From an uncultured Pelagibacteraceae bacterium (GTDB lineage Bacteria > Pseudomonadota > Alphaproteobacteria > Pelagibacterales > Pelagibacteraceae), in NCBI GenBank assembly GCA_902577075.1, contig CACGXV010000006.1:1-64000 (forward strand): DNA of 64,000 nucleotides, written 5' to 3'. Of this stretch, positions 16,835 through 37,186 are shown in pieces (the first letter of the stretch is position 1; each line of letters starts with the position of its first letter). The notes beneath the pieces were generated by a model. That model saw only the letters and a program-made list of their open reading frames with translations. It made no database searches and was not told the DNA's origin. Position numbers and translations under genes: made by a program.

Positions 16835-17290
16835 ATGAAAAAACTTTTATTTGTTTGTACTGGCAATTCTCACAGAAGCATATTGGCCGAAAGTGTAGTT
16901 AATAAATTTCATAAAAATAAATTTATTGGTTACAGTGCGGGTAGCAAACCATCTGGAATAATTAATAAATATGTCATTAAGTATCTAAATGAAAATAATT
17001 TTGATACAAAAAATCTGTCATCAAAAAACTTCAACAAATTCTTGAATGAGAAAACAACCTTTGATCAGGTATTTACTGTATGTAACAATGCTAGTAATGA
17101 AGTTTGTCCAGTCTGGCCATCCCCTGAAAAAATAGTTCATTGGGATATTGAAGATCCTGTTTATATCATTAATGAGTTAGAGAAGAGTGATAAACCAAAT
17201 AAAGAAGAGCTGATTTCAACAGAAATACATAAAACTTATTCCAATTTAGAAACAAGAATTAATGATTGGATAAAAAATTATGAAATATAG
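16835..17290 (+). CDS. arsC: Arsenate reductase, low-molecular-weight phosphatase type (thioredoxin-coupled)
   Basis: A 151-residue LMW-PTP-fold protein. The phosphate/arsenate loop CTGNSHR (C8-X5-R14) and two further cysteines, C83 and C91 (in VCNNASNEVCPVWP), match the redox triad of Staphylococcus-type ArsC, so it is an arsenate reductase rather than a tyrosine phosphatase. His13 replaces the more usual small residue in the loop. It overlaps the aquaporin gene by 11 bp. Arsenate enters through phosphate transporters, which explains its place in a phosphate-scarcity region. Confidence 0.87.
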   Translation: MKKLLFVCTGNSHRSILAESVVNKFHKNKFIGYSAGSKPSGIINKYVIKYLNENNFDTKNLSSKNFNKFLNEKTTFDQVFTVCNNASNEVCPVWPSPEKIVHWDIEDPVYIINELEKSDKPNKEELISTEIHKTYSNLETRINDWIKNYEI

Positions 17291-17957
17291 TAAGTTTTTT
17301 CTTGGAGAGTTTATTGGTAGTTGTTTCCTTGTAATGATTATTGTTGGCTCAGGAATAATGGCTGAAAATCTTACAAATGACACAGGTATTATGCTTTTAG
17401 CCAATACTATAGCAACTGGCGCAGGACTTTTTGTGCTAATTACTGTTTTTAGTGATGTTTCAGGAGCACATTTTAATCCATTTGTAAGTCTAGCAATGTT
17501 TCTTACAAAAAAATTAAAAGGAAATTTATTACCCACATATATATCTGCGCAAATTTTAGGTTGTTTGTTAGGTGTAGCACTTGCCAATTTCTTTTTCGAA
17601 CATCAAATTTTTGAATTATCAACAAAATCAAGGGACGGAATAAATATATTTACATCTGAAATTGTAGCAACATTTGGATTGATACTGATAATTTTTGGAT
17701 CATTAAAGAAAGGAAGTGTGGTAGTGGCCTCATGTGTAGCTTTTTATATCACTGCTGGTTATTGGTTTACATCATCTACATCATTTGCAAATCCTGCTGT
17801 AGCAATAGCGAGAACATTTACAGAAAGTTTTACTGGAATTAATTATATGTATACTCCAGTTTATATATTAGCAGAAATTATCGGTGCACTTTTTGCTGTA
17901 TTTGTGGCTAAAAAAATGCTTTTCAATAACAGAACAAGAGATAAAACTATCTCGTAG
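17280..17957 (+). CDS. aqpS: Aquaglyceroporin of the AqpS type, probably arsenite exit channel
   Basis: A 225-residue MIP-family channel with six membrane segments and two half-helix motifs. The first is HFNPF (N66-P67-F68) instead of the usual NPA, the second is FANPAV near residue 163. It is joined to arsC by an 11-bp overlap. In Sinorhizobium an aquaporin with ArsC lets arsenite leave the cell without a pump, and I infer the same here. Glycerol transport is a possible second role given the nearby glpD and ugpQ. Confidence 0.85.
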   Translation: MKYSKFFLGEFIGSCFLVMIIVGSGIMAENLTNDTGIMLLANTIATGAGLFVLITVFSDVSGAHFNPFVSLAMFLTKKLKGNLLPTYISAQILGCLLGVALANFFFEHQIFELSTKSRDGINIFTSEIVATFGLILIIFGSLKKGSVVVASCVAFYITAGYWFTSSTSFANPAVAIARTFTESFTGINYMYTPVYILAEIIGALFAVFVAKKMLFNNRTRDKTIS

Positions 17958-18067: not shown

Positions 18068-18787
18068 TTACAGGCTAGAAGGATTAATACTTTCAAACTC
18101 CAGCATGTTTTTAAAGGTACACATTTCAGGTTTTGTGAAAGTAATTTTTGGAAATTTTTTAATAAAATCAGAGGATAATTGTTTATTAAATTTAATTAAA
18201 TTTTTTATTTCAGTCTCATTAAGTTGTCTCAAGATATAAGCTAATGTAACATGGAAAGTATATCTTTGATGATTTTCAAATTTAATTTTCAATAAATTAC
18301 TTAGTTCATCTCTACAATTTCTTAAAATTTTTTCGTCCTCCTCAGAAAAGGGTTCTAAAACAATGCTGTAACCACCAAAAAATGTTTTTAGTTTTAAATT
18401 GATTTCTTTTGGAAAATTATAGTTTTCAATTCTTTTATTTAATTGAATAGCTATATCTTTGTAATCCATATCAAGATCTATATCTGTTGGCCAATAATAA
18501 GTATTTTTTGTATTTAAATTACAACAGTCAAATAATGTCATATGAAAACTAGATGGAGGTAAATAGGAATAAGTTTTTTCAGGATTAAAATTTTCTAAAT
18601 TTTTTTGAAAACCAATAATTTGATCAGATAAATATGTATTAAGAGGAATATTACAAATTATTGTGCACCCTGGAAATGGTAAAGGTTTTCCTTTATCGTC
18701 AAATTTATTTTCTGCACCTTTTAAACTATACCCTCTAAGTTTACCTGCTAAAAATTGCTCTTGGTTATTAACTATATTTAAATCCAT
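18068..18787 (-). CDS. DUF1868-type 2H phosphoesterase
   Basis: A 239-residue protein with two HxTx motifs, HMTL (82-85) and HVTL (180-183), spaced as in 2H phosphoesterases of the DUF1868 type. Such enzymes hydrolyse cyclic or linear phosphodiesters. It lies 9 bp downstream of ugpQ on the same strand, so it is probably the last gene of the ugp unit. I infer a role in breaking down a phosphodiester brought in or made by the glycerophosphodiester route, for example a cyclic glycerophosphate; the substrate is not known. It is the second 2H enzyme in this window and not obviously close to the DUF1045 protein. Confidence 0.75.
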   Translation of the reverse strand: MDLNIVNNQEQFLAGKLRGYSLKGAENKFDDKGKPLPFPGCTIICNIPLNTYLSDQIIGFQKNLENFNPEKTYSYLPPSSFHMTLFDCCNLNTKNTYYWPTDIDLDMDYKDIAIQLNKRIENYNFPKEINLKLKTFFGGYSIVLEPFSEEDEKILRNCRDELSNLLKIKFENHQRYTFHVTLAYILRQLNETEIKNLIKFNKQLSSDFIKKFPKITFTKPEMCTFKNMLEFESINPSSL

Positions 18788-18796
18788 TAAAATAAA

Positions 18797-19720
18797 CTAA
18801 AACCAGTTTATATTTTCTTTATCACAAAGTTCTTTCAGCCTTAATGGATAGTCTGTCATGATACCATCTACACTATACTCAATCATTTTTAACATATCGT
18901 ACTCTTCATTAACTGTCCAAACGTTCACTGGCAAATCTTCCTGATGAGAAATTTCTACTAGTTTTTTTGTAATATCTTTATGGTATGGATGCCAAGCCTT
19001 TCCACCTTGTGATTTTATAATTTTTGGTAACTCATATTTTTCAAAAAAAGGTAAGAAACTCATCCATGGAGATCTATTGTAAATTGTATTTTTAATTTTA
19101 ATTCCTGTCTGTTGTTGAAAACTTAAATAAGCTCTTGAAATTTCAGGGTAATGATTTTTGATTTCTGTCAGTGTTCTCCAATCAAATGAAGAAATGATTA
19201 TTTTATTTTGTAAATTTGATTTATTTACTTCTTGCATAACAAGTTTTACCATTTCCTCTGGGGTTGGAGTTAAATTTTCCTCGTCAGGTGTAGATTTAAT
19301 TTCTAAATTTATTAATAAATTTTCAGATTTGTTTTTTGAAGATAATTCTAATAACTCAGAAAGTTTTGGTATCTTTTGATTTTCTAAAGTTTTTTGATTA
19401 ACAAATCTTCTTCCATATCTAGATAATTTATTTAAAGCCCCAACATCAAATTTTAAAAGCTCATCGTCACTTAAGTCAAATATTATTATATTTTCATCCG
19501 TTATCCAATTTCCCTCATTATCTTTTGTAAAACTTGGATCTAATCTAAAGTCATGTGTAATCACAGGAATAAGATCTTTGGAAATCAAAATATCTGTTTC
19601 GTATGCATTAATATTGTTTTTAAATAAATATTTAAAACTTTCTAAAGTATTTTCAGGAAGATCTCCTCTAGCGCCTCTATGGCCATAAATTTTAATATAA
19701 TTTGGCTTTGATAAAATCAA
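18797..19720 (-). CDS. ugpQ: Glycerophosphodiester phosphodiesterase UgpQ
   Basis: Hydrolyses glycerophosphodiesters to glycerol-3-phosphate and an alcohol. The GDPD motif HRGARGDLPENT (residues 14-25) and metal-binding ETD (near 41) are intact, and the C-terminal VWTVNEEYD and GIMTDYP are typical. No signal peptide is seen, so it is cytoplasmic. The start is a TTG 2 bp after the ugpC stop (TAA); no ATG lies near the N-terminus, so translation is probably coupled to ugpC. It sits in the usual ugp operon position. Confidence 0.9.
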   Translation of the reverse strand: MILSKPNYIKIYGHRGARGDLPENTLESFKYLFKNNINAYETDILISKDLIPVITHDFRLDPSFTKDNEGNWITDENIIIFDLSDDELLKFDVGALNKLSRYGRRFVNQKTLENQKIPKLSELLELSSKNKSENLLINLEIKSTPDEENLTPTPEEMVKLVMQEVNKSNLQNKIIISSFDWRTLTEIKNHYPEISRAYLSFQQQTGIKIKNTIYNRSPWMSFLPFFEKYELPKIIKSQGGKAWHPYHKDITKKLVEISHQEDLPVNVWTVNEEYDMLKMIEYSVDGIMTDYPLRLKELCDKENINWF

Positions 19721-19722
19721 AA

Positions 19723-20775
19723 TTAATTTACTCGATTACCATTAGATTTATCAAAAACATAATAATTGTTATCATTTATGTTCAAAGATAATTTACTTCC
19801 TTTTTTAATAATTTGACTTCCAGAACATCTAAAACAAAAATCTTTTTTATTTTTTATTTCTCCATAAATCAAATTATCTGAACCTAATTGTTCTACCAGA
19901 TCTACAGATAAATTTATTAAACCTTTATCAGTTTGCGACATATGCTCTGGCCTAATTCCTAATATAACTGGTCCATTAAAATCACTTGTAACATTATTAA
20001 TTTCAAAACCTTCTGAAGTAAGAGTTTTATTTTTTAATTCTCCTTCAAGAAAATTCATCTGTGGCGAACCTATAAATCCTGCGACAAACATAGATTTAGG
20101 ATTATTATAAATTTCTATCGGTGTTCCAAGCTGCTCAATAAGGCCATTATTTATTACTGCCAGTCTATCAGCTAAGGTCATAGCTTCTACTTGGTCATGA
20201 GTTACAAATATACTTGTCACTCCAACTTTTTGCTGAAGTTTTTTTATTTCAAGCCTCATTTGTATTCTTAGTTTTGCATCTAAATTAGATAATGGCTCAT
20301 CAAATAAAAATATTTTAGGACTTCTTACAATAGCTCTTCCCATAGCAACTCTCTGCCTTTGACCTCCTGACAACATGGATGGTTTTCTTTGCAAGTATTC
20401 AGAAATTTGTAATAGCTTTGCTGCCTCATTAACTTTTTTTTCAATATCTTCTTTTGAAATACCTCTATTTTTTAATCCGTAAGCCAAATTGTTGTAAACA
20501 TTCATGTGAGGATAGAGTGCATAATTCTGAAAAACCATCGCAACATCTCTCTCTGAAGGGTCAACTTTATTAATTAATATTCCATCAAGATTTATATTAC
20601 CTTCAGTTATGTCTTCTAACCCAGCAATCATTCTTAAAAGAGTAGATTTTCCACATCCGCTTGGTCCAACAAAAACCATGAATTCACCATTTTCTACATT
20701 CATACTTGTCTCATGAACAGCTTTAGTTCCGTTTGGATAGATTTTAGTAACTTTATTTAATTCTAAAAAACTCAT
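19723..20775 (-). CDS. ugpC: sn-Glycerol-3-phosphate ABC transporter ATPase UgpC
   Basis: A 350-residue CUT1-family ATPase with Walker A GPSGCGKS (38-45), signature LSGGQRQRVAMGRA, Walker B IFLFDEPLSNLDA and a C-terminal TOBE/regulatory domain of about 110 residues. It directly abuts ugpE with no gap. It energises uptake of glycerol-3-phosphate and probably glycerophosphodiesters. MalK and MsmX are near relatives; the neighbours make it UgpC. Confidence 0.93.
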   Translation of the reverse strand: MSFLELNKVTKIYPNGTKAVHETSMNVENGEFMVFVGPSGCGKSTLLRMIAGLEDITEGNINLDGILINKVDPSERDVAMVFQNYALYPHMNVYNNLAYGLKNRGISKEDIEKKVNEAAKLLQISEYLQRKPSMLSGGQRQRVAMGRAIVRSPKIFLFDEPLSNLDAKLRIQMRLEIKKLQQKVGVTSIFVTHDQVEAMTLADRLAVINNGLIEQLGTPIEIYNNPKSMFVAGFIGSPQMNFLEGELKNKTLTSEGFEINNVTSDFNGPVILGIRPEHMSQTDKGLINLSVDLVEQLGSDNLIYGEIKNKKDFCFRCSGSQIIKKGSKLSLNINDNNYYVFDKSNGNRVN

Positions 20776-21627
20776 TTATTTCTCTGTTTGAATTAATCCT
20801 TTTATGAACCATTTTTGCAAAAATACTACCACTAAAACTGGGGGGATCATTGATAAAATAATATAAGCAAATCTCTCTGCTGTTCTTGGTAAAGCAACTC
20901 CCTCATAACTTTCAGTAAATATAATTTTCATTCCCATTACTACAGTCCAATATTCCTCACTCGTAGTCATTATTAACGGCCATAAATATTGACTATATCC
21001 GTATACAAACATGAATATAAACATCGCTGCAATCATTGTTTTAGATAATGGAACTAAAAAATCTATAAAAAATCTCCAACTATTTGCACCATCTAATTTT
21101 GCTGATTCAAGTAATTCATCAGGTATAGTTTTATAAAACTGTCTAAAAAAAAAGGTAGCGGTGGCTGATGCAACCAATGGAAGAACAAGACCTGTGTATG
21201 AATTAGTTAAACCTAAATCTGATACAATCTTATAACTTGGAAAAATCCTAACCTCCAGAGGCACAAGTAAAGTAATAAAGATTAACCAAAAAATTGGTAC
21301 AGCTAATTTGAATCTAAAATAAACTAAAGCATAAGCTGACATTGCTGAGATAATTACTTTAAGGGTTGCAATTCCTAAAGCCATTATAAAGCTATTTATA
21401 AACATTTTTGCAGCAGTCACTTCCTCTGACCAACCACCCTTCTCATTTAAAACTTCGTTATAATTTCTTGTTAATTGATCGCCAAGACCAAATTTCATTC
21501 CCTCTTTTAAAATAGTTACAGTATCGTGGGTAGAGCTAGCAAATGATAACCAAATCGGAATTACCATTAATAAAACACCTAGTATAAGTACAATGTGTGC
21601 TAAAATTTGTGATAATTTAATTTTCAT
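20776..21627 (-). CDS. ugpE: sn-Glycerol-3-phosphate ABC transporter permease UgpE (copy 1)
   Basis: A 283-residue permease of the MalG type with about six membrane segments and coupling loop ELLESAKLDGANSWRFF. It overlaps the next upstream copy by 4 bp. The two copies share long identical protein stretches, from FFRQFYKTIPDELLESAKLDGAN onward, so this is a tandem duplication. This copy has an additional loop near the C-terminus (FTESYEGVALPRTAERFAYII) which the other lacks. Confidence 0.92.
   Translation of the reverse strand: MKIKLSQILAHIVLILGVLLMVIPIWLSFASSTHDTVTILKEGMKFGLGDQLTRNYNEVLNEKGGWSEEVTAAKMFINSFIMALGIATLKVIISAMSAYALVYFRFKLAVPIFWLIFITLLVPLEVRIFPSYKIVSDLGLTNSYTGLVLPLVASATATFFFRQFYKTIPDELLESAKLDGANSWRFFIDFLVPLSKTMIAAMFIFMFVYGYSQYLWPLIMTTSEEYWTVVMGMKIIFTESYEGVALPRTAERFAYIILSMIPPVLVVVFLQKWFIKGLIQTEK
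21089..21141. repeat. 53-bp perfect repeat shared by the two ugpE genes, copy 1
   Basis: This segment is identical, including third codon positions, to 21907-21959 in the neighbouring ugpE copy. It encodes the permease coupling loop (QFYKTIPDELLESAKLDG). Identity ends abruptly on both sides, as expected after gene conversion or strong selection on this loop. Confidence 0.9.
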
Positions 21628-22445
21628 TTGTCTTGAAAGATCCCTTTAATAAAATATTTTTGTAATACAATTATGATTAATACTGGTGGTATCATTGACA
21701 TGATGACGAATGCAAATTTGTTAACGATTGATCCAGACATCATCTTTAATCCCATGACAACAGTCCAATATTGTTCAGAAGAAGTTACTAATATCGGCCA
21801 TAAATATTGATTATAACCGAATACAAACATAAATATGAACATTGCAACAATCATTGTTTTTGACAATGGCACTAAAAAGTCAATAAAAAATCTCCAAGTA
21901 TTTGCGCCATCTAATTTTGCTGATTCAAGTAATTCATCAGGTATAGTTTTATAAAACTGCCTAAAAAATAAAGTAGCTATAGCAGAAGCTGAAATTGGAA
22001 TAATTAGTCCCCAATATGAGTTTACTAAGTTAAGTGTAGACATAACAGAATAGGTAGGAAAAATTCTTAACTCCAGAGGGACTAGTATAGTAATAAAAAT
22101 TATCCAAAATAACAATGTTGCATATTTCACTCTGAAATAAACTAAGACATATGCAGTCATAAGAGATGAAATAACTGATACAAACGCAACTCCAGTTGCC
22201 ATTAAAAAACTATTTAAAAACATCTTTAATGCAGTAATTTCTTTAAAAAAACCACCCTCATATAATAAAACTTTCGTATAATTCTCTAAAAACTTATCTC
22301 CTAAAAAAAATTGAAGACCTTGGGTATTAATAATCGAAGCTGTATGAGTTGAGCTTGCAAAAATTAACCACACAGGAATTATCATAATGAAAATGCCTAT
22401 CAAAAGAATTAAATGAGAAAAGTTTGATGAAAAATATCTAATCAT
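21624..22445 (-). CDS. ugpE2: sn-Glycerol-3-phosphate ABC transporter permease UgpE (copy 2)
   Basis: A 273-residue paralogue of the neighbouring UgpE, with about six membrane segments and the same coupling loop (ELLESAKLDGANTWRFF). It starts 1 bp after ugpA and overlaps ugpE by 4 bp. UgpA could pair with either copy, giving two forms of the importer, or the copies may prefer different ligands. Both reading frames are intact, so neither looks like a decaying copy. Confidence 0.9.
   Translation of the reverse strand: MIRYFSSNFSHLILLIGIFIMIIPVWLIFASSTHTASIINTQGLQFFLGDKFLENYTKVLLYEGGFFKEITALKMFLNSFLMATGVAFVSVISSLMTAYVLVYFRVKYATLLFWIIFITILVPLELRIFPTYSVMSTLNLVNSYWGLIIPISASAIATLFFRQFYKTIPDELLESAKLDGANTWRFFIDFLVPLSKTMIVAMFIFMFVFGYNQYLWPILVTSSEQYWTVVMGLKMMSGSIVNKFAFVIMSMIPPVLIIIVLQKYFIKGIFQDK
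21907..21959. repeat. 53-bp perfect repeat shared by the two ugpE genes, copy 2
   Basis: Identical to 21089-21141 in the other ugpE gene; see that entry. The flanking DNA (gcgccat here versus gcaccat there on the plus strand) differs on one side by a single silent change. Confidence 0.9.
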
Positions 22446-22446
22446 T

Positions 22447-23325
22447 TTAATTGTAATGTATTTTCCCTTCTATGTATCTAAATTGAAAAATTGTAATAAC
22501 TAAAACAATCAACATCATCATAATTGATTGAGCACCAGCACTTCCTAAGTCTAACCCCCTAAATCCGTCCATGTATGCTTTATAAACAAGAGTTCTTGTT
22601 TCACCTGAGGGTGCACCAATTGTTGTAGTGTCAATTATTCCAAAAGTATCAAAAAAAGCATAAGTTATATTGATAATGATTAAAAAGAAAGTTGTGGGCA
22701 TCAATAGAGGGAAAGTGATTGTCCAAAATCTTCTGAAACTACTTTTACAATCAATTATCGATGCTTCAATGACAGATTGTTGTATTGCTTGAAGACCGGC
22801 TAAGAAGAAAATAAAATTAGCACTTATTTGTTTCCATGATCCTGCTATTATTAAGTAGATATAAGAATCAAAAACACTTTCATACCAATTAAAACCCCAT
22901 AAATCGTTAAATAGATGATACAATAATCCAAATCTTTCACTAAAAAAATAATTTGCCATAACACCCACCACCGCTGGCGCAATAGCATAAGGCCAAATCA
23001 AAAGAGTTTTGTAGGCACTTTTTCCATGCATTACATTATTGGCTTGTACAGCAAGTAACAATCCAATGGCTCCTGTAACAAGTGTAATCACAAAGCTATA
23101 AATAATAGTAAACTTAAAAGCTATTAAATAAGCCGGGTCATCAAAAATAAATAAAAAATTATCAAACCATACAAATTGTCTTCCAAATCCAAATGCATCT
23201 TGCATGGTAAATGCATCTCTAAAAGTTTGTATTATTGGCCAATATAAAAATATTAATAAAATACCTAGCTGTGGTGCTAAAAAAAAATACTGTGAATAGT
23301 TTGATTTAAACTGAACTTTTTTCAT
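22447..23325 (-). CDS. ugpA: sn-Glycerol-3-phosphate ABC transporter permease UgpA
   Basis: A 292-residue MalF-type permease with six membrane segments. The PYAIAPAVVGVMANYFF stretch and the coupling loop EASIIDCKSSFRRFWTITFPLLMPT (near 185-210) fit UgpA; an Asp-Cys-Lys occupies the usual D-G-A position of that loop. It follows ugpB after 48 bp that contain a hairpin, so the permeases are probably expressed at a lower level than the binding protein. Confidence 0.93.
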   Translation of the reverse strand: MKKVQFKSNYSQYFFLAPQLGILLIFLYWPIIQTFRDAFTMQDAFGFGRQFVWFDNFLFIFDDPAYLIAFKFTIIYSFVITLVTGAIGLLLAVQANNVMHGKSAYKTLLIWPYAIAPAVVGVMANYFFSERFGLLYHLFNDLWGFNWYESVFDSYIYLIIAGSWKQISANFIFFLAGLQAIQQSVIEASIIDCKSSFRRFWTITFPLLMPTTFFLIIINITYAFFDTFGIIDTTTIGAPSGETRTLVYKAYMDGFRGLDLGSAGAQSIMMMLIVLVITIFQFRYIEGKIHYN

Positions 23326-23373: not shown

Positions 23374-24681
23374 TTAAAGAGTCTTAGCAAATTGTTTTAA
23401 CAATTTAGCTGCACCCTTATCCATGTTCTTTAATCCTTTTTCGATTGATATTTTGCCATTTAACATTGGCTCAACATTTTCGTAAATTACTTCACGAATT
23501 TGAGGCCAGTTACCAGCTCTATATCCACCAGGAATAGTTGAACCTTCTAAGCTTAATTGTTCACCAACAGCTTTGTGATATGGAGAAGCTCTATAAAAGT
23601 TTATAGTTTCAGCTAATTCTATACCACCTTTAGTTACAGCAGAATAACCTGTCATGTTGTGATAGTATAAATCCATTTCAGGAGAACCCATAAATTCTAT
23701 GAATTTAGCAAGTCCTTTATACTCTTCTTCTGTATGACCATTTAAGATCCAGTTTGCTGCGCCACCAATAAATGTTGGATACTCTTTGCCACCAGTTACT
23801 GAGTCCCAATAAGGAATATGATTAACTGTAAAATTTGGAACAACACCTTTCATTCCACCAAATGATGCAGCAGATCCAAACCAAAAAGCAGCCTCACCTG
23901 CTATAAATGGTGCTTGATTATCTCCCCAAGCTCTTCCTTTATAGCCGTAGAGACCTTTTTCGTACCATTCTTTTACTTTTTTCCAATGATAAACAAATGC
24001 ATCTGTTTCAGCAAATAAAGTTTTTGTCGGAACAGCATCGTAACCATTGTTTCCATCTGTCATAAGGAGATTATGTCTTGAAAAGAAATTTTCTGTCCAG
24101 ATCCAAGGAGAGTGACTTTGAACTAAAGGAATATATCCAGCAGCTTTAATTTTTGGAGCCATAGCCTCAAATTCTTCATAAGTTTTTGGAACTGATTCTA
24201 TTCCTACTTCTTTCAATATGTCCATATTTGCATACATTAAGCAAGTTGAACTATTAAAAGGAACACCTATCATTTTTCCATCAGAGTCAGCATAGAAGTT
24301 TTTAATTCCAGGAATATAATTATCTGCATCTACTTTAATTCCATATTTCTCAGCCATATCTTCAAAACCAATAACAACGCCATTTTTAACTTGGGCTACC
24401 ATAATTGCAGCACCAGCATCGTAAACCTGTGAATAATGTGGTTGGTCTCCCGCTCTAAATGCAGCTATAGTTGCCGCCATGTTATCTTCATAACTTCCTT
24501 TACCTGTAGGAATGACGGTGTATTCATCTTGTGAAGCATTAAATCTATTTGCAATTTCAATAATTACATCACCAAGAAATCCACTATTTCCATACCACCA
24601 ATGAATTTCTGTCTTTGAATAACTGTGTGATGTAAAAGAGAAAGTAAATAGAATTGTTAAAACACTCAATATTTTTTTCAT
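23374..24681 (-). CDS. ugpB: sn-Glycerol-3-phosphate binding protein UgpB
   Basis: A 435-residue periplasmic binding protein with a signal peptide (about 22 residues, cleaved near SHSYS). The mature start EIHWWYGNSGFLGDVI and GKGSYEDNMAATIAAFRAG resemble UgpB, where WWY and the Tyr/Trp pocket bind glycerol-3-phosphate. First gene of the ugpB-A-E2-E-C-Q unit. The 138-bp region to divergent glpD carries a Pho-like repeat and a palindrome. Confidence 0.93.
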   Translation of the reverse strand: MKKILSVLTILFTFSFTSHSYSKTEIHWWYGNSGFLGDVIIEIANRFNASQDEYTVIPTGKGSYEDNMAATIAAFRAGDQPHYSQVYDAGAAIMVAQVKNGVVIGFEDMAEKYGIKVDADNYIPGIKNFYADSDGKMIGVPFNSSTCLMYANMDILKEVGIESVPKTYEEFEAMAPKIKAAGYIPLVQSHSPWIWTENFFSRHNLLMTDGNNGYDAVPTKTLFAETDAFVYHWKKVKEWYEKGLYGYKGRAWGDNQAPFIAGEAAFWFGSAASFGGMKGVVPNFTVNHIPYWDSVTGGKEYPTFIGGAANWILNGHTEEEYKGLAKFIEFMGSPEMDLYYHNMTGYSAVTKGGIELAETINFYRASPYHKAVGEQLSLEGSTIPGGYRAGNWPQIREVIYENVEPMLNGKISIEKGLKNMDKGAAKLLKQFAKTL

Positions 24682-28154: not shown

Positions 28155-29663
28155 TTAATTTGAATAAATTACCCTAGGATCTAAAAATAATTCTCTTGCT
28201 AAAGCTTTGAATTTTTTCGTAACTTGTTTTGAGATTATCTCTTGATGCTGCGAAGGTATTTTTAAAAAAACAGCATTTCCTCTTTTATAAAGTTTAAATT
28301 CTTCTAAAAAAATTGTAGATATTGATGTAAGAGAATTAGCAAATCTTAAGGCTGCACCAACTTGTTTGCATGAATATATCTCGTTGTTATTTAAAAACGT
28401 TAAGTATTCTATCTTTGGGTTGTATTTTATACTGCAATATCTCCAGTAACAAGAAAGTGCCAATTGTATTCTTTCTTTATGTGAAAGTTTTAATAAAGGC
28501 GTATTTAATGTTTCTTGAAAAACCAACTCTGCTTTTTGGAATGCTCCCAAACCCCAATCCATATGACTTAGTACGCAAGATAGATGAAGCAATTTTTGAT
28601 TAAAATGCTCATTTCCCTCAAATATAGGTTTTATAAAATCAAAATATTTCTTATATGTAGATCCTAAATCGCCTCTTTTTTTTGAAATATGCTCTAATGA
28701 TTTATTAAAAACAAAATTACTATCTGAGTTTTTAAATAAATCTTTGGCAAGAGATCCTTCTCTAATACCGCTAATTGAGCAAATAACATTTTTTGGATTT
28801 GCTATGTTCATAATTTCTTCTAGAATTATTGAGCTATAAGGAAGATAAGGCGTTCTAGACTTTGATATGTATTCAACTGATTTCAATTTAGATTTATTAA
28901 ATGAAGAAATTTTTTCTAAAAATTTTTTAAGTTTTTCATTTTCTACTGAGTATTGATGAATAATATGGACTGGATATTCATTTTGAAATAAGTGTAATTT
29001 AAACAAAGCTCTCCACGTACCTCCCACCAAATATAAATTATTAAATTTTTTTTTAGATAACCATTTTTCATCTCTTAAAAGATTTTTGAGATATTTAGGT
29101 AAATTTCTTTTTTTAACAATAGGATTGTTGATTAACCTTAATACACCAACTGGAAGTGATGTTTTATTTGTTACAACATTGTTTTCAACTCTAGCAAGCT
29201 CTAAACTTCCACCACCTAAATCAGCAACAAGTCCATCCACATTCTCAAATCCAATTTTAACGCCTTCAGCTGATGATTCAGCTTCTTCTTCACCAGTTAA
29301 AATATTTATATTTTTTTTAAATAAGTATTCTACTTCTTCAATAAAGGGCTTTGCGTCTGTAGCTTCTCTTAATACAGCTGTTGCAATAATTTTAAGGTTA
29401 TTAATTTTTGAAACATTAAGAATTTCTGAAAATCTTTTTAAAACTTTTAAAGCATATATCTTGCCTGATTTATGAAGTTTTTTTGATTTATCTAAGTTTT
29501 TACCAAGTTCACAAACTGCTTTTTCATTAAAAAAAGGTACTCTAGATGATGTAAAATCATCGTAAATTAACATTCTTATAGAATTTGAACCTATATCAAT
29601 AATAGCTAATTTTGATTGTCTTAATTTTAAATTTTGCTTATTTTTAATTACTTTAAGTTCCAT
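28155..29663 (-). CDS. ppx: Exopolyphosphatase Ppx/GppA family
   Basis: Removes phosphate from polyphosphate ends (or pppGpp in the GppA form). A 502-residue ASKHA-fold protein: IDIGSNSIRMLIYD (near residue 22) is the phosphate-1 motif and ADLGGGSLELARV the phosphate-2 motif; the C-terminal half is the HD-like helical region (LSHMDWGLGAF). Its start overlaps the end of ppk by 11 bp, so kinase and phosphatase are co-translated and the balance of polyphosphate is set in one operon. Confidence 0.92.
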   Translation of the reverse strand: MELKVIKNKQNLKLRQSKLAIIDIGSNSIRMLIYDDFTSSRVPFFNEKAVCELGKNLDKSKKLHKSGKIYALKVLKRFSEILNVSKINNLKIIATAVLREATDAKPFIEEVEYLFKKNINILTGEEEAESSAEGVKIGFENVDGLVADLGGGSLELARVENNVVTNKTSLPVGVLRLINNPIVKKRNLPKYLKNLLRDEKWLSKKKFNNLYLVGGTWRALFKLHLFQNEYPVHIIHQYSVENEKLKKFLEKISSFNKSKLKSVEYISKSRTPYLPYSSIILEEIMNIANPKNVICSISGIREGSLAKDLFKNSDSNFVFNKSLEHISKKRGDLGSTYKKYFDFIKPIFEGNEHFNQKLLHLSCVLSHMDWGLGAFQKAELVFQETLNTPLLKLSHKERIQLALSCYWRYCSIKYNPKIEYLTFLNNNEIYSCKQVGAALRFANSLTSISTIFLEEFKLYKRGNAVFLKIPSQHQEIISKQVTKKFKALARELFLDPRVIYSN

Positions 29664-31803
29664 CTTTAACCAACCTTAAGTTTAATTTTTTAGGTTTAAT
29701 TTTTAGTTTTGCCTTTCCTCTTCCTGATAAACTTGGATTATTCATGAAATAATCATGTGCAGAAAAAGAATCTTTTCGACTATATTTAATTTTTTGATAA
29801 TTTCCATTAGGATAAAGTTCCCAGCTCTGATTCGTGTCTAGATAATTGGCCATCATTATTTGGTCTAAAACCTGTTCATGAACAGTTTGATTTTCAATTG
29901 GCACGAGAAGTTCGACTCTTCTATCTAGATTTCTTGGCATCAAATCTGCAGATGAAATATAAACTTTTGCATTTCTGTTAGGCATTAATTTTCCATTTGC
30001 AAAACAATATATTCTTGAGTGTTCAAGAAATCTTCCAATGATACTTTTTACAATAATATTTTCCGATTTATTTTTAATACCAGGTCTTAAACAACATACA
30101 CCTCTTACAAATAAAGAGACTTTTACACCGACACTAGAAGCCTCATAAAATTTATCAATTATTTGTGAATCAACTAATGAATTCATTTTAGCCCAAATCT
30201 CAGCGTGTTTCCCTTTTTTTGCATTACTTATTTCCTTATCTATATTCTGATTTAAAGTTTTTCTTAAATTTACAGGTGAAATGGAAATTTTATTTAAATT
30301 TCTTGGTTTAGAATATCCAGTCACGTAATTGTAGAATTTTTCTACATCTGCAGCCATTTTTTTATCAGAGCTAAATAGAGATAAGTCTGTGTATATTTTT
30401 GCATTTACAGGATGATAATTGCCAGTACCTAAATGGAAATATGTTTGAATTTTACCACCCTCACGTCGATGTATTAGTGATGATTTAGCATGTGTTTTGT
30501 ATTTTGCAAAACCATAAACAATTTGAACTCCAGCTTTTTCAAGACTTCTTGCCAGCTGTATATTTGCTTCTTCATCAAATCTAGCTTTGATTTCAATTAA
30601 AGCAGTAACTGTTTTGCCATTTTCGGAAGCGCTAATTAATGCTTTAACAATTGGTGAATCTAAAGTAGTTCTGTACAAAGTTTGTTTAATAGCAATTACT
30701 TTTTTATCCATAGCAGCTTGATTTAAAAATTCAATTACAGCATCAAAAGTCTCAAATGGATGATGAACTATTAGGTCTTTTTTCTTAATTGTCTCAAAAA
30801 AATTATTATTGTATTCTTTTAATCTTTCTACTTCTCTTGGTGTAAAGTTTTTAAATTTTAATTTAGAATTTTTAATTTTACAAATTTGGTCTATATCCTG
30901 GATTCCAACTAAACCTGCTACTTCATAAATATAATTTGGATTAATTTCTAATTTATTTGTTATAAATTTTACAAGTTCTTTGTCGCTTTTTTCTAAAATT
31001 TCTAATCTAACAATATCACCAGTTCTTCTTCGCTTTAATGCTAGTTCAAATGATCTGACTAAATCCTCAGCCTCTTCTTGAATTTCTACATCACTATCTC
31101 TTATTACTCTAAATATCATTTTCTTTTCTAATAAATGATCTGGAAAAATTTCAGAGGCAAAGTAACCAATAACATCGTCTAGAACCAAAAATTTCTTAAA
31201 TGATTTTCCTCCATCTATTTCAATAAATCTTGATAAAGCTTTAGGAATTACGATAATTGAATTAAGAATTCTCTTTTTTTTCTTTTTCTTCAGCTTCATA
31301 ACTAAAGCTCTACCTTGATTAATAATAAATGGAAAAGGATGAGAAGGATCAATCGCTGATGGTGTAAGTAGAGGATAAATTTCTTCGTTAAATATTTCTA
31401 ATAATTTCTTTTTTTCTTTTGTGTTAAGGTTTTCTGGCTTAGTCAATAAAATATTATTTCTCTTCAGCTGATTTGATAGATTATTAAATATGGTATTTTG
31501 TTTATTTAATAGATTTTTTGTATCATTAATAACCATCTCCATCTGTTCTTCAGGTGTTAGTCCATCTGAACTTAGTGAGTCGACTTCTTGTTTAATTTGA
31601 CTGTATAGTCCAGCAACTCGAACCATAAAAAATTCATCTAAATTAGAGCCTGCAATAGATAAAAATTTTACTCTCTCATAAAGAGGATTTTCAATATTTT
31701 GCGCCTCTAACAGAACTCTATCGTTAAATTTTAACCATGATAATTCTCTATTTATATAATTGGATTTAAGCTCTTCTTTGTCTTGTTTTTTTAATGCAGT
31801 CAT
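29653..31803 (-). CDS. ppk1: Polyphosphate kinase Ppk1
   Basis: Reversibly makes polyphosphate from ATP. I start at the ATG 31803 (MTALKKQDKEELKSNYINRELSWLKFNDRV); the ORF-track form adds 36 residues that only read through the divergent sixA gene. The result, 716 residues, is normal. The autophosphorylated histidine motif KYKTHAKSSLIHR, HLGTGNYHP and the C-terminal MPRNLDRRVELLVP with phospholipase-D-like geometry are present. Only 13 bp separate it from sixA, so its promoter lies within sixA or vice versa. Confidence 0.94.
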   Translation of the reverse strand: MTALKKQDKEELKSNYINRELSWLKFNDRVLLEAQNIENPLYERVKFLSIAGSNLDEFFMVRVAGLYSQIKQEVDSLSSDGLTPEEQMEMVINDTKNLLNKQNTIFNNLSNQLKRNNILLTKPENLNTKEKKKLLEIFNEEIYPLLTPSAIDPSHPFPFIINQGRALVMKLKKKKKKRILNSIIVIPKALSRFIEIDGGKSFKKFLVLDDVIGYFASEIFPDHLLEKKMIFRVIRDSDVEIQEEAEDLVRSFELALKRRRTGDIVRLEILEKSDKELVKFITNKLEINPNYIYEVAGLVGIQDIDQICKIKNSKLKFKNFTPREVERLKEYNNNFFETIKKKDLIVHHPFETFDAVIEFLNQAAMDKKVIAIKQTLYRTTLDSPIVKALISASENGKTVTALIEIKARFDEEANIQLARSLEKAGVQIVYGFAKYKTHAKSSLIHRREGGKIQTYFHLGTGNYHPVNAKIYTDLSLFSSDKKMAADVEKFYNYVTGYSKPRNLNKISISPVNLRKTLNQNIDKEISNAKKGKHAEIWAKMNSLVDSQIIDKFYEASSVGVKVSLFVRGVCCLRPGIKNKSENIIVKSIIGRFLEHSRIYCFANGKLMPNRNAKVYISSADLMPRNLDRRVELLVPIENQTVHEQVLDQIMMANYLDTNQSWELYPNGNYQKIKYSRKDSFSAHDYFMNNPSLSGRGKAKLKIKPKKLNLRLVKDGT

Positions 31804-31816
31804 ATATTTAGATTTA

Positions 31817-32332
31817 ATGCGCGAATTATATGTCATGAGACATGCAAAATCTAGTTGGGAAGACCCAAATTTAAGTGATTTTGAAAGACCACTAAATAAA
31901 AGAGGCATCAAAAGTGCAAAAATTATAAGTGAATTTTTTGTTAAAAAAAAATACTCCTTTGACTACGTGCTTTTATCTTCATCAAAAAGAACAAAAAAAA
32001 CTCTAAATTTAATACTGAATAAAATAAATAAACCAAAAAAAATTAAAAGTTCCTCAAAACTCTATTTGGTTAATGAAAATGAAATAATAGCTAATATAAA
32101 AAATATCCATAAAAAGTTTAAGAAAGTATTGATAATAAATCATGAGCCTGCTCTTAAAAATTTAGTTATAAAATTAACTAAAAATAAAGATAATAGTAAT
32201 TTTAAACTATTAAATTATAAATTCCCAACTTGTGCATTTGCTAAAATAGTTTTCGATACGAATGATTGGATAAATATTGAAGAGAAAGGAATTATTTCTG
32301 AATTTGTAAGGCCTAAAGATTTAGTTATCTAA
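31817..32332 (+). CDS. sixA: SixA-type histidine phosphatase
   Basis: A 171-residue histidine phosphatase. The RHAKSSWEDPNLSDFERPLNKRG N-terminal motif (H9 catalytic) is typical of SixA, and the second His lies in INHEPAL. I start at ATG 31817; the longer ORF adds 19 residues overlapping ppk. E. coli SixA removes phosphate from phosphohistidine of phosphotransfer proteins. Its 3' end overlaps phoB by 12 bp. Whether it acts on PhoR-type proteins or on a nitrogen-PTS protein cannot be told. Confidence 0.82.
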   Translation: MRELYVMRHAKSSWEDPNLSDFERPLNKRGIKSAKIISEFFVKKKYSFDYVLLSSSKRTKKTLNLILNKINKPKKIKSSSKLYLVNENEIIANIKNIHKKFKKVLIINHEPALKNLVIKLTKNKDNSNFKLLNYKFPTCAFAKIVFDTNDWINIEEKGIISEFVRPKDLVI

Positions 32333-33004
32333 CGAATAGCCTGCAGATCTCACTGTGCGAATTAAATTTTCTAATCCACTAACATTTAAAACTTTTCTCA
32401 ATCTTCTTATGTGAACATCAACCGTTCTACTTTCTACATAAATATTTTCACCCCAAACATTATTTAGTAATTGTTCTCTTGAATAAACTCTTTTTGGATT
32501 TTTAATAAAAAAATCTAATAATTTAAATTCTGTGGGTCCCAAAATTATTTCCTTATCATTTCTATAAACTCTTTTTGCTAATCTATCAATTTTAAGGTCT
32601 TTAAATTCCACAACATCAGTTGATGACAAAGGTTTAGCCCTTCTTAACAAAGATTTAATTCTTGCATTTAATTCTTTTTGGCTAAATGGTTTAGTGACGT
32701 AATCATCGGCTCCAGTTTCAAATGCTTTTAATTTATCTTCCTCCTCTCCTTTTGCAGTAAGCATAATAATTGGAATGTCATTATATTTTTTATCCCTTTT
32801 TAACTGTTTACATATTTCAACACCTGATAAATCTGGCAACATCCAATCTAATAAGATTAAGTCTGGCATTTTTTGTTTTATTGATTTTAAAGAGTCCTCT
32901 CCATTTTCACTTGAAGAAACCTTATGACCTTCTTTTTCTAAATTATATTTTAATAAGGTTGAAATTGGCGCCTCATCTTCTGCAATAAATATGTGTGCAC
33001 TCAT
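32321..33004 (-). CDS. phoB: Phosphate regulon response regulator PhoB
   Basis: OmpR/PhoB family regulator, 227 residues. Receiver domain with phospho-acceptor Asp in LILLDWMLPDLSG (near residue 54) and Lys in VTKPFS, then a winged-helix DNA-binding domain ending in ESRTVDVHIRRLRKVL and IRTVRSAGYSL. When phosphorylated by PhoR it should bind the YTGTAAY-type repeats found in this window. It is the last gene of pstSCAB-phoU-phoB, sharing a base with phoU. Confidence 0.95.
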   Translation of the reverse strand: MSAHIFIAEDEAPISTLLKYNLEKEGHKVSSSENGEDSLKSIKQKMPDLILLDWMLPDLSGVEICKQLKRDKKYNDIPIIMLTAKGEEEDKLKAFETGADDYVTKPFSQKELNARIKSLLRRAKPLSSTDVVEFKDLKIDRLAKRVYRNDKEIILGPTEFKLLDFFIKNPKRVYSREQLLNNVWGENIYVESRTVDVHIRRLRKVLNVSGLENLIRTVRSAGYSLDN

Positions 33005-33705
33005 TACTTTGTTAATTCTGAATCGCTACCCTTGGGTCTTTCACCCTCTAAATAATCACCTGTAACTAAATAATATACTTGCTCAGCAATGTTTGTTGTA
33101 TGATCTCCTATCCTTTCAAGGTTTTTAGTAACAAATAAAAGATGTGAGCCATATTCAATATTTTCCATATTTGATTTAATTAATGAGATGACTTCTTCCA
33201 TACATTTATTTGTTAAATCATCAACTTGTTCATCACTCTCCCATACTGTTTGAGCTACATCGCTTGATCTACTTAGATAAGAGTCTAAAACAATTTTTAA
33301 TTGTTTTTGAACCAAAATGCAGATTCTACTCATTGCTTCAATTAAATTATTTGGCAAATGCGTATTTATAAGTTTTGTTCTTTTTGCAATATTTTTGGCA
33401 AGATCACCTATTCTTTCTAAGTCTGAAGACATCTTTAGAGCTGCAACTGTTTCTCTAAGATCCACAGCCATTGGTTGTCTTAAAGCAATTAAATTTACTA
33501 CCTCATTCTCTATCTGAGACTCAAAATTATCTATAACCATATCTGAATTTATAACATCATCAGCAAGGTTATGATCATTTGTTGATATTGCTTTCATTGC
33601 ATTACCTAAAGCGGTTTCGCAATTTGCCCCCATTTCAACTAAATCATTGTTTAATTTTTTTAATTGGTCTTCGTAAGATTTTACTGTGTGTGGTTTTTCA
33701 TTCAT
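33004..33705 (-). CDS. phoU: Phosphate signalling protein PhoU
   Basis: A 233-residue all-helical protein with two three-helix PhoU repeats, each with a metal-binding E/DxxxD-type motif (DLERIGDLAKNIAKR near 95-110 and NLERIGDHTTNIAEQ near 195-210). It links the Pst transporter to PhoR and keeps the Pho response off when phosphate is plentiful. It overlaps pstB and phoB by one base each. Confidence 0.95.
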   Translation of the reverse strand: MNEKPHTVKSYEDQLKKLNNDLVEMGANCETALGNAMKAISTNDHNLADDVINSDMVIDNFESQIENEVVNLIALRQPMAVDLRETVAALKMSSDLERIGDLAKNIAKRTKLINTHLPNNLIEAMSRICILVQKQLKIVLDSYLSRSSDVAQTVWESDEQVDDLTNKCMEEVISLIKSNMENIEYGSHLLFVTKNLERIGDHTTNIAEQVYYLVTGDYLEGERPKGSDSELTK

Positions 33706-34460
33706 TATCCAAACCTTCCTGTTATGTAATCCTGCGTTTGTTGTTGAGTCGGATTCTTGAATATCTTATCAGTAGAACCTACTTCAATCAATTTGCCAAG
33801 GTGAAAAAAACCAGTATTTTGAGAGACTCTTGCAGCTTGGGACATTGAGTGAGTAACAATTATTATAGTATGTTCCTTTCTTAATTCATCAATTAGCTCC
33901 TCTATTTGTGCTGTCGCAATTGGATCAAGAGCTGAACATGGCTCATCCATGAGTATTACCTCTGGCTTAATTGATATTGTTCTTGCAATACAAAGTCTTT
34001 GTTGTTGTCCACCTGATAAACCAGTACCTGGTTCGTGAATTCTGTCTTTTACCTCTTCCCAAAGTGCTGCTTTTCTCAAACTCTCTTCAACAATATTATC
34101 CATTTCACTTTTAGATTGAGCTATCCCATGTATCTCAGGTCCATAAGAAATATTCTCATAAATGGTTTTTGGAAAAGGATTTGGTTTTTGAAAAATCATT
34201 CCAACTTTTTCTCTAAGCCTTACAACATCTGTATCTTTTTGATTTATGTCATAGTCATTAATTTTTACGACACCACTGACTTTACAAATATCGATCACAT
34301 CATTCATCCTATTTAAACATCTTAAGAATGTTGATTTACCACAACCAGAAGGTCCAATAAGAGCAGTTACTTTATTTGCTTCGATATCCATATTGATATC
34401 AAATAAAGCTTGTTTCGCTCCATAATAGACATCAACATTTTTTGCTTCTATTTTATTCAT
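33705..34460 (-). CDS. pstB: Phosphate ABC transporter ATPase PstB
   Basis: ATPase of the high-affinity phosphate importer, 251 residues, with Walker A GPSGCGKS (near 36-43), signature [15 protein letters not shown] and Walker [14 protein letters not shown], all typical of PstB. The [25 protein letters not shown] end is diagnostic. It follows pstA after 3 bp and shares a base with phoU. Confidence 0.97.
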
Positions 34461-34463
34461 ATT

Positions 34464-35732
34464 TTAGTTCCATTTCTTTTCAAATTTATGTCTAATTAAT
34501 TGTGCTCCTAAATTCATAAATATTAGGAAAAATAATAATACCATTATGCAAGCAGACACTTTTTCTACAAATCCTCTTTCGGCACTCTCTGCCCATATAT
34601 AGATTTGAACAGGCAAGCTAGCTGCTGGATCCATAGGGGTTCCTGGTATTGTGTTAACAAAAGCAACCATTCCAATTAATATTAAAGGCGCTGTTTCACC
34701 TAATGCTTGAGCTAAGCCAATTATAGTACCTGATAAAGTTCCAGGTAAAGCCAAAGGCACGGTATGATGCATCGTCGTTTGCATTTTGCTAGCTCCCATT
34801 GCTAAAGCTGCTTCTCTTATACTGGGTGGAACAGCCTTCAATGATGCTCTGGCTGCTATTATAATTGTTGGAAGAGTCATTAATGAAAGGGTTATACCTC
34901 CAACTAAGGGTGTTGATCTAGGTAAACCAAATACAGCCAATAAAACACCTAATCCTAACAATCCAAAAACAATTGAAGGAACTGCTGCTAGATTATTGAT
35001 ATTTACTTCAATAAAATCTGTAAATCTATTTTTTGGTGCAAATTCTTCTAGATAAACTGCAGCTAGTAAGGCAACAGGAAAGGCAATTGACAGACAGACA
35101 AGTATGGAAAATAATGAACCCATAAATGAGCTTGCTATCCCCGCTAACTCAGCTTCTCTAGAATCAGCATTTGTAAAAAAACTGGCATTAAATTCACTTA
35201 TAATTCTTCCATCTTCATTTAATTTATCAAAAATTTTTAATTGATAATCAGATGCTCTTCTTCTATTTTCAGGTATATCTCTTGGATAATTTCCTTTAAA
35301 TACTTGATCTAAGTCGTCAGAGGCTGTTAATTTTACATCAACTGTTTTTCCAAAGCTATCAGGATTGTCTAGAAGATAATATTTTAATTCTCTCTCAAAA
35401 GTAAATGCAAACATTTTTTTTAATTCCATAATTTGATCCTCACTTGCATCTGGATCGAGAGTGATAAATGTTTCTATCCCAAACTCATAAAAGTCTGCAT
35501 CATTAATATCTTCGGTTGTTGGTTTTTTATCTGGATCCAAATATAATAAATCTGCATTATAATTGACTGGTATTACCAACCATGTTTTTTGAAATGCTGT
35601 GTAACCAGTAGAAAATATCTTTGTTAGAAATACCACTAGAAATAATAAAGCCATAAATATTGCAGCTTTACCGTAAAATTGAAATCTTTTTTCAGCTTTG
35701 TATCTTTTAATTAAACGTTCTTCTTTATTCAT
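34464..35732 (-). CDS. pstA: Phosphate ABC transporter permease PstA
   Basis: A 422-residue permease with six membrane segments in the C-terminal part and a periplasmic region of about 150 residues after the first segment (DUF3333-type N-terminus, common in alphaproteobacteria). The coupling loop reads REAALAMGASKMQTTMHHTVPLALPG. It overlaps the end of pstC by 8 bp. Confidence 0.95.
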   Translation of the reverse strand: MNKEERLIKRYKAEKRFQFYGKAAIFMALLFLVVFLTKIFSTGYTAFQKTWLVIPVNYNADLLYLDPDKKPTTEDINDADFYEFGIETFITLDPDASEDQIMELKKMFAFTFERELKYYLLDNPDSFGKTVDVKLTASDDLDQVFKGNYPRDIPENRRRASDYQLKIFDKLNEDGRIISEFNASFFTNADSREAELAGIASSFMGSLFSILVCLSIAFPVALLAAVYLEEFAPKNRFTDFIEVNINNLAAVPSIVFGLLGLGVLLAVFGLPRSTPLVGGITLSLMTLPTIIIAARASLKAVPPSIREAALAMGASKMQTTMHHTVPLALPGTLSGTIIGLAQALGETAPLILIGMVAFVNTIPGTPMDPAASLPVQIYIWAESAERGFVEKVSACIMVLLFFLIFMNLGAQLIRHKFEKKWN

Positions 35733-37107
35733 ATTTCTCTCTATATTTTTTCACAACAGATAAGGCAACAATATTTAAAACTAAAGTAACTATAAATAAA
35801 CTTAATCCCAATGCAAAAGCTGCTTGGGTTTTCGGATCCCCAAATTGTTGATCACCAATTAAGATAACAACAATTTGAGCAGTTATTGTTGAAGTGGACT
35901 CTAACGGATTAAGAGTTAGGTTTGCTGCCAACCCTGATGCCATTACAACAATCATTGTTTCACCAATAGCTCTAGAAACACCTAATAAAATAGATCCAAC
36001 AATTCCAGGTAAAGCAGCTGGAAAGATTACTCTTTTTATTGTTTCAGATTTTGTTGCTCCCATGGCATAGCTACCATCTCTAAGATTTTGAGGAACACTT
36101 GTAATTACGTCGTCACTTAAGCTTGATATAAATGGAATAATCATAATTCCCATAACACCACCGGCTGCCAGTGCGCTTTCTGCTGACACCTCTAATCCTA
36201 ATGATAATCCAAGGTCTTTTAAAAAAGGTCCAACTGTTAAAGCAGCAAAAAAACCATAAACAACAGTTGGAATTCCTGCTAAAATTTCAATGACAGGTTT
36301 CGCATATTGTCTTAAACGTTTGCTCGCATATTCCGCCATATAAATACCACTTAACAAACCAATTGGTATTGCAACACACATTGCAATCAAAGCTATAAAA
36401 AAGGTGCCTGCAAATATCGGAACCGCACCAAAAGTATCACTATACATTGATGGATCAAGTGCTTCACTTGCATCTCGAACAAAAGCTTTTGCAGGATACC
36501 AGTGCATTCCAAATACAAAATCAAATAGTGGGATAACTTGAAAAAATTCTATTGTTTGAAACAAAAGGGAAAAAATAATACCAATGGTTGTTAATATCGC
36601 TGCCAGTGATGATAAAAAAAATACTCCTTTAAGAAATATTTCAACTGGTTCTCTTGTTTTAGTGTTGTTTGAAATCTTTGTATACGCATAACCTGTTGAT
36701 GCAATTAATAATGATAAAACTATAACGACCTTAGACCACTTTGCTATGTCTCTAAAGTTTAAATATTTTTCTGCTGATCTTTGTAACTCTGCAGTAAGTT
36801 CTCCTGAATACTGGTTTCGAGAAAGTGATTTTACTTTTTCATAAAATAAATTCAACTCTCCTTCTAGAAGTCCTTGCGAAGAATAATCACTAAGTATAAA
36901 AAATCTTACTATGCTAGGTTCAAATATCGACCATAAAGCATACAAAAGAAAAGCGGGTGCGCCACACCATATAGCAAGATAGTACCCATAAAATTTTGGA
37001 AGAGCTGTTAACCGTTTGTTAGATTGAATTAAAATAGCTTTTTTTCTTCCAAAGAAGTAACTGGATAAAGCTAAAAGAACGATTGTTAAAAATATTACTG
37101 AATTCAA
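35725..37107 (-). CDS. pstC: Phosphate ABC transporter permease PstC
   Basis: A 460-residue permease, longer than the E. coli 319-residue form because of an N-terminal membrane segment and periplasmic domain (about residues 60-150). The core starts near residue 230 (FAGTFFIALIAMCVAIPIGLLSGIYMAEYA) and has the coupling loop RDGSYAMGATKSETIKRVIFPAALPG. It pairs with PstA and lies 79 bp after pstS, past a strong terminator. Confidence 0.95.
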   Translation of the reverse strand: MNSVIFLTIVLLALSSYFFGRKKAILIQSNKRLTALPKFYGYYLAIWCGAPAFLLYALWSIFEPSIVRFFILSDYSSQGLLEGELNLFYEKVKSLSRNQYSGELTAELQRSAEKYLNFRDIAKWSKVVIVLSLLIASTGYAYTKISNNTKTREPVEIFLKGVFFLSSLAAILTTIGIIFSLLFQTIEFFQVIPLFDFVFGMHWYPAKAFVRDASEALDPSMYSDTFGAVPIFAGTFFIALIAMCVAIPIGLLSGIYMAEYASKRLRQYAKPVIEILAGIPTVVYGFFAALTVGPFLKDLGLSLGLEVSAESALAAGGVMGIMIIPFISSLSDDVITSVPQNLRDGSYAMGATKSETIKRVIFPAALPGIVGSILLGVSRAIGETMIVVMASGLAANLTLNPLESTSTITAQIVVILIGDQQFGDPKTQAAFALGLSLFIVTLVLNIVALSVVKKYREKYE

Positions 37108-37131
37108 TTATTGGCTCCTTTAGATTTATAC

Positions 37132-37164
37132 AAAAAAAAGGGCCCAATTAATAGGGCCCCTTTT
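37132..37164 (-). terminator. Terminator or attenuator between pstS and pstC
   Basis: Minus strand AAAAGGGGCCC, then an 8-nt loop and GGGCCCTTTT with a run of T; one G is bulged. The stem is GC-rich in a very AT-rich setting. It falls inside the operon, so it should reduce pstCAB-phoU-phoB transcription relative to pstS. Confidence 0.85.
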
Positions 37165-37186
37165 GAGTTTGTTAACAAATATTATA

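Follow-up and report, generated by a model that had tools for sequence, protein, structure and literature searches.

Tandem ugpE permease genes in a SAR11 bacterium: an old duplication and a short identical tract probably left by silent gene conversion

The locus described here lies in the genome of an uncultured Pelagibacteraceae bacterium (GenBank assembly GCA_902577075.1, contig CACGXV010000006.1), of which positions 1 to 64,000 were analysed; this whole stretch of 64,000 nucleotides is referred to as the window. It contains the gene order of a Ugp importer, ugpB-A-E-C with a glycerophosphodiester phosphodiesterase (GDPD) gene, in which the permease gene ugpE is present as two tandem copies, ugpE1 (E1) and ugpE2 (E2; Table 1). 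An earlier, sequence-only reading of this DNA had reported two intact ugpE genes overlapping by 4 bp, and both the open reading frames and their coordinates were confirmed. The subunits find their best matches among the Ugp models, although only UgpC exceeds its curated NCBIfam cut-off, while UgpA, UgpB and both UgpE proteins fall below theirs. UgpB has a single strong match per genome in all four genomes tested.

Table 1. Genes and sequence features of the ugp locus, in window positions
Feature	Position	Strand	Basis or remark
DUF1868 / 2H-phosphodiesterase-like gene	18068-18787	-	Next after the GDPD gene
Glycerophosphodiester phosphodiesterase gene, ugpQ-like	18797..19720	-	Pfam GDPD, 3.4e-38
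ugpC, ATPase	19723..20775	-	NF008653, 514 bits (cut-off 432)
ugpE2 (E2), downstream, conservative permease copy, 283 aa; probable conversion recipient	20776..21627	-	ORF; NF008210, 284.5 bits (cut-off 297); dN/dS 0.02-0.10
Codons 240-248, nine positions of the periplasmic TM5-TM6 loop found in E2 but in no E1	20884..20910	-	Alignment with single-copy UgpE relatives
Probable minimum original tract, ugpE2	21081..21150	-	Union of clade-A identical runs 478-533 and 487-547
53-bp identical tract, ugpE2 copy	21089..21141	-	
ugpE1/ugpE2 stop/start overlap, ATGA, 4 bp	21624..21627	-	Identical in all recovered pairs
ugpE1 (E1), upstream, divergent permease copy, 273 aa	21624..22445	-	ORF; NCBIfam UgpE NF008210, 235.5 bits (cut-off 297); Pfam BPD_transp_1; dN/dS ~0.05
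Probable minimum original tract, ugpE1 (gene nt 478-547, 70 bp)	21899..21968	-	Union of clade-A identical runs 478-533 and 487-547
53-bp identical tract, ugpE1 copy (codons 163-179), EAA/coupling loop	21907..21959	-	
ugpA, other permease subunit	22447..23325	-	NF007852, 2.2e-76, 257.5 bits (curated cut-off 335)
ugpB, substrate-binding protein	23374..24681	-	NF008211, 6e-78, 262.4 bits (curated cut-off 411)
FAD-dependent oxidoreductase, glpD-like		+	Diverges from the ugp genes

The DUF1868 / 2H-phosphodiesterase gene keeps its place behind the GDPD gene in the SAR11 loci examined. In two loci (L063:6726-7647 and L070:6726-7560) the GDPD gene matches as two separate out-of-frame pieces, which may reflect a frameshift or an internal deletion. 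Further phosphate-related genes lie near the ugp/glpD block (region 29653-38221), encoding polyphosphate kinase 1 (29653-31911), a PstA-like permease (34464-35732) and a PstS-like binding protein (37187-38221). At 16835-17957 a gene for a low-molecular-weight phosphatase-family protein, presumably ArsC-like, and a gene for a major intrinsic protein of the aquaporin family overlap by 11 bp; aqpS-arsC arsenic gene pairs occur in rhizobia, and this pair appears to resemble them.

The two-copy arrangement has a narrow distribution and a constant form. When 397 Pelagibacteraceae genomes were searched, 35 gave an E1 match, all of them from the window's own genus, and both copies were found in 34 of these; in the remaining genome E1 lies 480 bases from the end of its contig. 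One ugpE match was obtained in each of 45 genomes from further genera of the family, and the seven such loci examined in full have the order ugpB-A-E-C-Q with a single E. This single-E ugpBAEC-Q operon of other Pelagibacteraceae genera (L140-L146) is a different operon and not the closest relative of that in the window. Of 52 genomes from a second alphaproteobacterial family, designated f32, which we take to be HIMB59-like, 37 carry both copies and three more have one match. Copy number in relatives, a point raised by the sequence-only reading, is thus two in the window's genus and most f32 genomes, and one in other Pelagibacteraceae genera. In all 96 distinct pairs E1 has 273 codons, E2 has 283 codons and the overlap is 4 bp. 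No related protein was found in the viral contigs searched for carriage by phage, and a literature search returned no description of a ugpB-A-E1-E2-C operon; the HIMB59/AEGEAN-169 literature examined does not mention ugp, nor does the main text of a 2025 PNAS paper on glycerol-1-phosphate mention SAR11.

The ugpE1/ugpE2 pair is old. A protein tree of E1 and E2 pairs with 34 single-copy relatives recovered an E1 clade (support 100/100) and an E2 clade (97/84), each spanning SAR11 and family f32, and united the two (100/100) with the single-copy genes outside; the single-copy genes closest to the pair belong to other families of Alphaproteobacteria and not to other SAR11 genera, with the caution that a long-branch warning applies to the deeper joins of this tree. 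A recent duplication was rejected, since silent sites are saturated, E1 and E2 form deep clades and divergence is not uniformly low. The stem of E1 is about four times as long as that of E2 (0.65 vs 0.15), and the TM5-TM6 segment compared has 49-50 residues in E2 and the nearest single-copy relatives vs 41 in every E1. The sequence-only reading was thus broadly correct that the channel parts diverge: a long stem branch and a nine-residue periplasmic deletion mark E1 as the divergent copy. Purifying selection is strong on both copies (dN/dS 0.02-0.10); relaxed selection on E1, or its decay to a pseudogene, was also considered and rejected, dN/dS being about 0.05 in three clades.

The genes shared with family f32 are unusually alike. 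Between the window and two f32 genomes (L180 and L181) protein identity is 90% for UgpB, 87-88% for UgpA, 88-89% for E2, 74-76% for E1 and 63-65% for UgpC, and 53-55% for valyl-tRNA synthetase. The UgpB proteins of the single-copy operons examined are only 31-47% identical, so slow evolution alone is unlikely to account for the likeness of ugpBAE1E2. The simplest explanation of these identities, judged against one housekeeping control, would be horizontal sharing of ugpBAE1E2 between SAR11 and the HIMB59-like lineage.

Over their whole length ugpE1 and ugpE2 have a DNA identity of 68% and a protein identity of 61%. Silent positions outside the loop described below are near saturation, so that a codon-by-codon alignment does not show uniformly low synonymous divergence. 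Within this background 53 consecutive bases are the same in both genes, silent positions included, exactly as first noticed, where the second-longest exact run is 16 bp. The tract encodes QFYKTIPDELLESAKLD (codons 163-179), and alignment with MalG places it on the EAA/coupling-loop segment. It had been described as lying exactly over the loop that contacts UgpC; the location in the EAA/coupling loop holds, but the tract covers only the N-terminal half, the C-terminal half (GANTWRFFIDF) differing in DNA.

For comparison between genomes the distinct pairs were sorted into three clades: clade A, with 29 pairs from the window and its close relatives; clade B, with 40 from other SAR11; and clade H, with 27 from family f32. 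Silent identity between paralogues at codons 162-179 is 0.93 in clade A, 0.56 in clade B and 0.67 in clade H, while orthologues of clades A and B have silent identities there of 0.66 (E1) and 0.55 (E2). Within clade-A genomes, therefore, paralogues are closer to each other in the tract than orthologues are; as the excess is confined to clade A and the A x B orthologues are low, it belongs to that clade and is not due to synonymous constraint. The gene conversion proposed in the sequence-only reading is supported by this contrast. The codons of E2 point the same way. Against seven of eight clade-B references, E2 codons within the tract are shared with the paralogue and the orthologue in ratios of 8-11 to 1-2, and those in the rest of the gene in ratios of 8:26 to 17:17 (Fisher p for tract versus rest 0.0005-0.025); the eighth reference, L097, gives a weaker 6:2 in the tract. 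With clade H as reference there was no clear signal in two of three cases, because silent sites are saturated. An artefact of single-cell assembly was rejected, since all 29 distinct clade-A pairs, drawn from many different genomes, carry the tract.

It might be argued that no conversion took place, and that strong amino-acid conservation combined with AT-rich codon bias allowed 17 codons to match by chance. About half of all paralogue codons match in any case (heterologous mean 0.53): among the 152 degenerate codons of ugpE1 and ugpE2 that encode identical residues, 92 are the same codon, the tract forming a run of 17, and a run of this kind was reached in 127 of 20000 permutations of the codon matches, for a p of only about 0.006. 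In a regional tree of 123 columns the join between the E1 and E2 genes of clade A has weak support (87/67), and holding all E1 genes in one group improves the score by 4.5 log units (AU p = 0.72); on its own this tree does not reject paralogue monophyly and is too short to decide. However, nearly the same protein loop is encoded in clades B and H with 56-67% silent identity, against 93% in clade A alone, and under a codon-specific null, based on E1 x E2 match rates between different clades, the tract of the window has p = 0.0028. The same scan gave p = 0.0009-0.0097 in 26 of 29 clade-A pairs and 0.010-0.04 in the other three; p was 0.06-0.80 in 36 of 40 clade-B pairs, with four pairs below 0.05, and above 0.16 in all 27 clade-H pairs. 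These per-genome values are moderate, and the clade-A genomes should be counted as one event rather than 29, but chance matching is an unlikely account of the tract.

Identical runs among clade-A pairs range from 35 to 61 bp, and their union covers positions 478-547 of the gene; the patch therefore probably measured 70 bp or more at first and has since begun to erode. Codons 173-174 read CTT GAA in E1 genes of SAR11 and also in clade-A E2, where the E2 genes of clades B and H mostly have TTG/TTA GAG, and differences between clades A and B at tract codons are more numerous in E2 than in E1. Both observations indicate that E1 was probably the donor and E2 the recipient. Four clade-B E2 genes (L097, L098, L113 and L114) are E1-like at codons 172-174, and two of the four clade-B pairs with p < 0.05 (L097 and L114) have their tract at the clade-A position; the event may accordingly be older than clade A, or repeated.

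We consider it likely that an ancient duplication was followed by a short E1-to-E2 conversion in the ancestor of clade A, which was tolerated as a silent by-product. The pair would go back to a single duplication of ugpE within a ugpBAEC operon, earlier than the sharing of that operon between SAR11 and the HIMB59-like lineage. E2 would have retained the ancestral form; E1, evolving at a higher rate, would have lost nine residues from the periplasmic loop between TM5 and TM6. In the clade-A ancestor some 53-70 bp or more of one copy, most likely E1, would then have been pasted over the other in the EAA loop by homologous recombination, at the site where the two genes are most alike, presumably since each protein has to fit a single shared ATPase. 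Recombination would require such similarity, and a transfer at this place could be tolerated since it changes no residue; the tract would now be eroding through silent substitution.

Within the tract the E2 proteins of the three clades are essentially alike, with an identity of 1.00 (rounded) for A x B and for A x H; K166R, seen in four clade-B genes, is the main exception. The transfer thus altered no residue of its probable recipient. Paralogues that lack the DNA tract are nonetheless 94% (clade B) and 89% (clade H) identical in its amino acids, so that the equality of the ATPase contact is accounted for by selection on the protein. These results bear on an adaptive form of conversion, already put forward in the sequence-only reading, by which selection retains the converted patch to hold the two UgpC-contacting loops equal while the remainder diverges. 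The position of the tract on the coupling loop, and the significant tracts at the same place in L097 and L114, which make recurrence possible, are consistent with such a role, but the E2 protein in the tract is essentially the same with or without conversion, the loops of clades B and H remain alike without it, and similarity alone predicts where the tract should fall. We regard an adaptive role as improbable, and the claim that conversion keeps the contact equal was not upheld.

A further alternative is that the tract arose by recombination with the allele of another strain and not between two copies in one cell. SAR11 recombines between strains, and in the regional tree the genes of L097, L098 and L113 are almost the same for E2 and more distinct for E1; the tract has the same position in all clade-A pairs, however, and some earlier step from paralogue to paralogue would be needed anyway, so this origin seems quite doubtful. 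Synonymous constraint, through an RNA element, a translation signal or a hidden gene for which both copies kept the ancestral DNA, would agree with the high silent identity of the tract within clade A but was rejected, being effectively refuted by orthologues that differ between clades as much in the tract as elsewhere (0.55 for E2 of A x B, 0.57 for A x H).

With a silent conversion as the preferred reading, the stable and more interesting feature of the locus is the second permease, E1, rather than the tract. In MalG a scoop loop participates in the transfer of substrate from the binding protein (PMC8134467), and the nine-residue deletion of E1 appears from alignment to fall in the corresponding loop. 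AlphaFold2 models of E1 and E2, built from 16-row alignments, were too poor to be used (mean pLDDT 40.5 and 37.5; pTM 0.25-0.26). A separate putative E1 channel that shares UgpB and UgpC with E2 would be a reasonable proposal, and two importer versions with a common binding protein, as envisaged in the sequence-only reading, would be plausible. We suggest, tentatively and as one possibility among several, a Ugp system with three permease subunits, in which E2 would form the ordinary UgpA-UgpE channel and E1 with UgpA a second channel (or a three-permease arrangement), taking substrate from the same UgpB in a different manner or serving another glycerophosphodiester. In two lineages of streamlined marine bacteria, which have little DNA to spare, this second and diverged permease is retained under strong purifying selection, and the ugpB-A-E1-E2-C operon raises the question why a single binding protein with a single ATPase should require two permeases as partners. 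The tract itself offers a clear small case of conversion located where paralogues must stay alike, in which matching DNA need not imply selection for matching.

Among known systems the closest is the Ugp ABC importer of glycerol-3-phosphate and glycerophosphodiesters (UgpBAEC with UgpQ), which the window resembles in its B-A-E-C-Q order and in its best matches to Ugp models; unlike it, the window has two ugpE genes, an E1 without nine periplasmic-loop residues, and A, B and E proteins below the curated cut-offs. Its operon is best described as a candidate Ugp-type importer of glycerol-3-phosphate or glycerophosphodiesters. Permeases of the MalG / SugB type (PDB 2r6g, 8ja7, 7cad) belong to the same family and their EAA loop aligns with the tract, but they are only distant relatives in sequence, and the E1 loop that matches the TM5-TM6 segment of MalG is shorter. 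For the tract, a precedent is found in the release factors RF1 and RF2, functionally distinct bacterial paralogues, where ectopic conversion is confined to the functionally shared domain 3 and was judged neutral by the authors (PMC4530459). In both cases the converted patch is limited to the part whose function the two paralogues have in common, although the ugpE tract is much shorter (53-70 bp compared to nearly the whole domain), its copies are tandem, and the residues of the recipient are unchanged.
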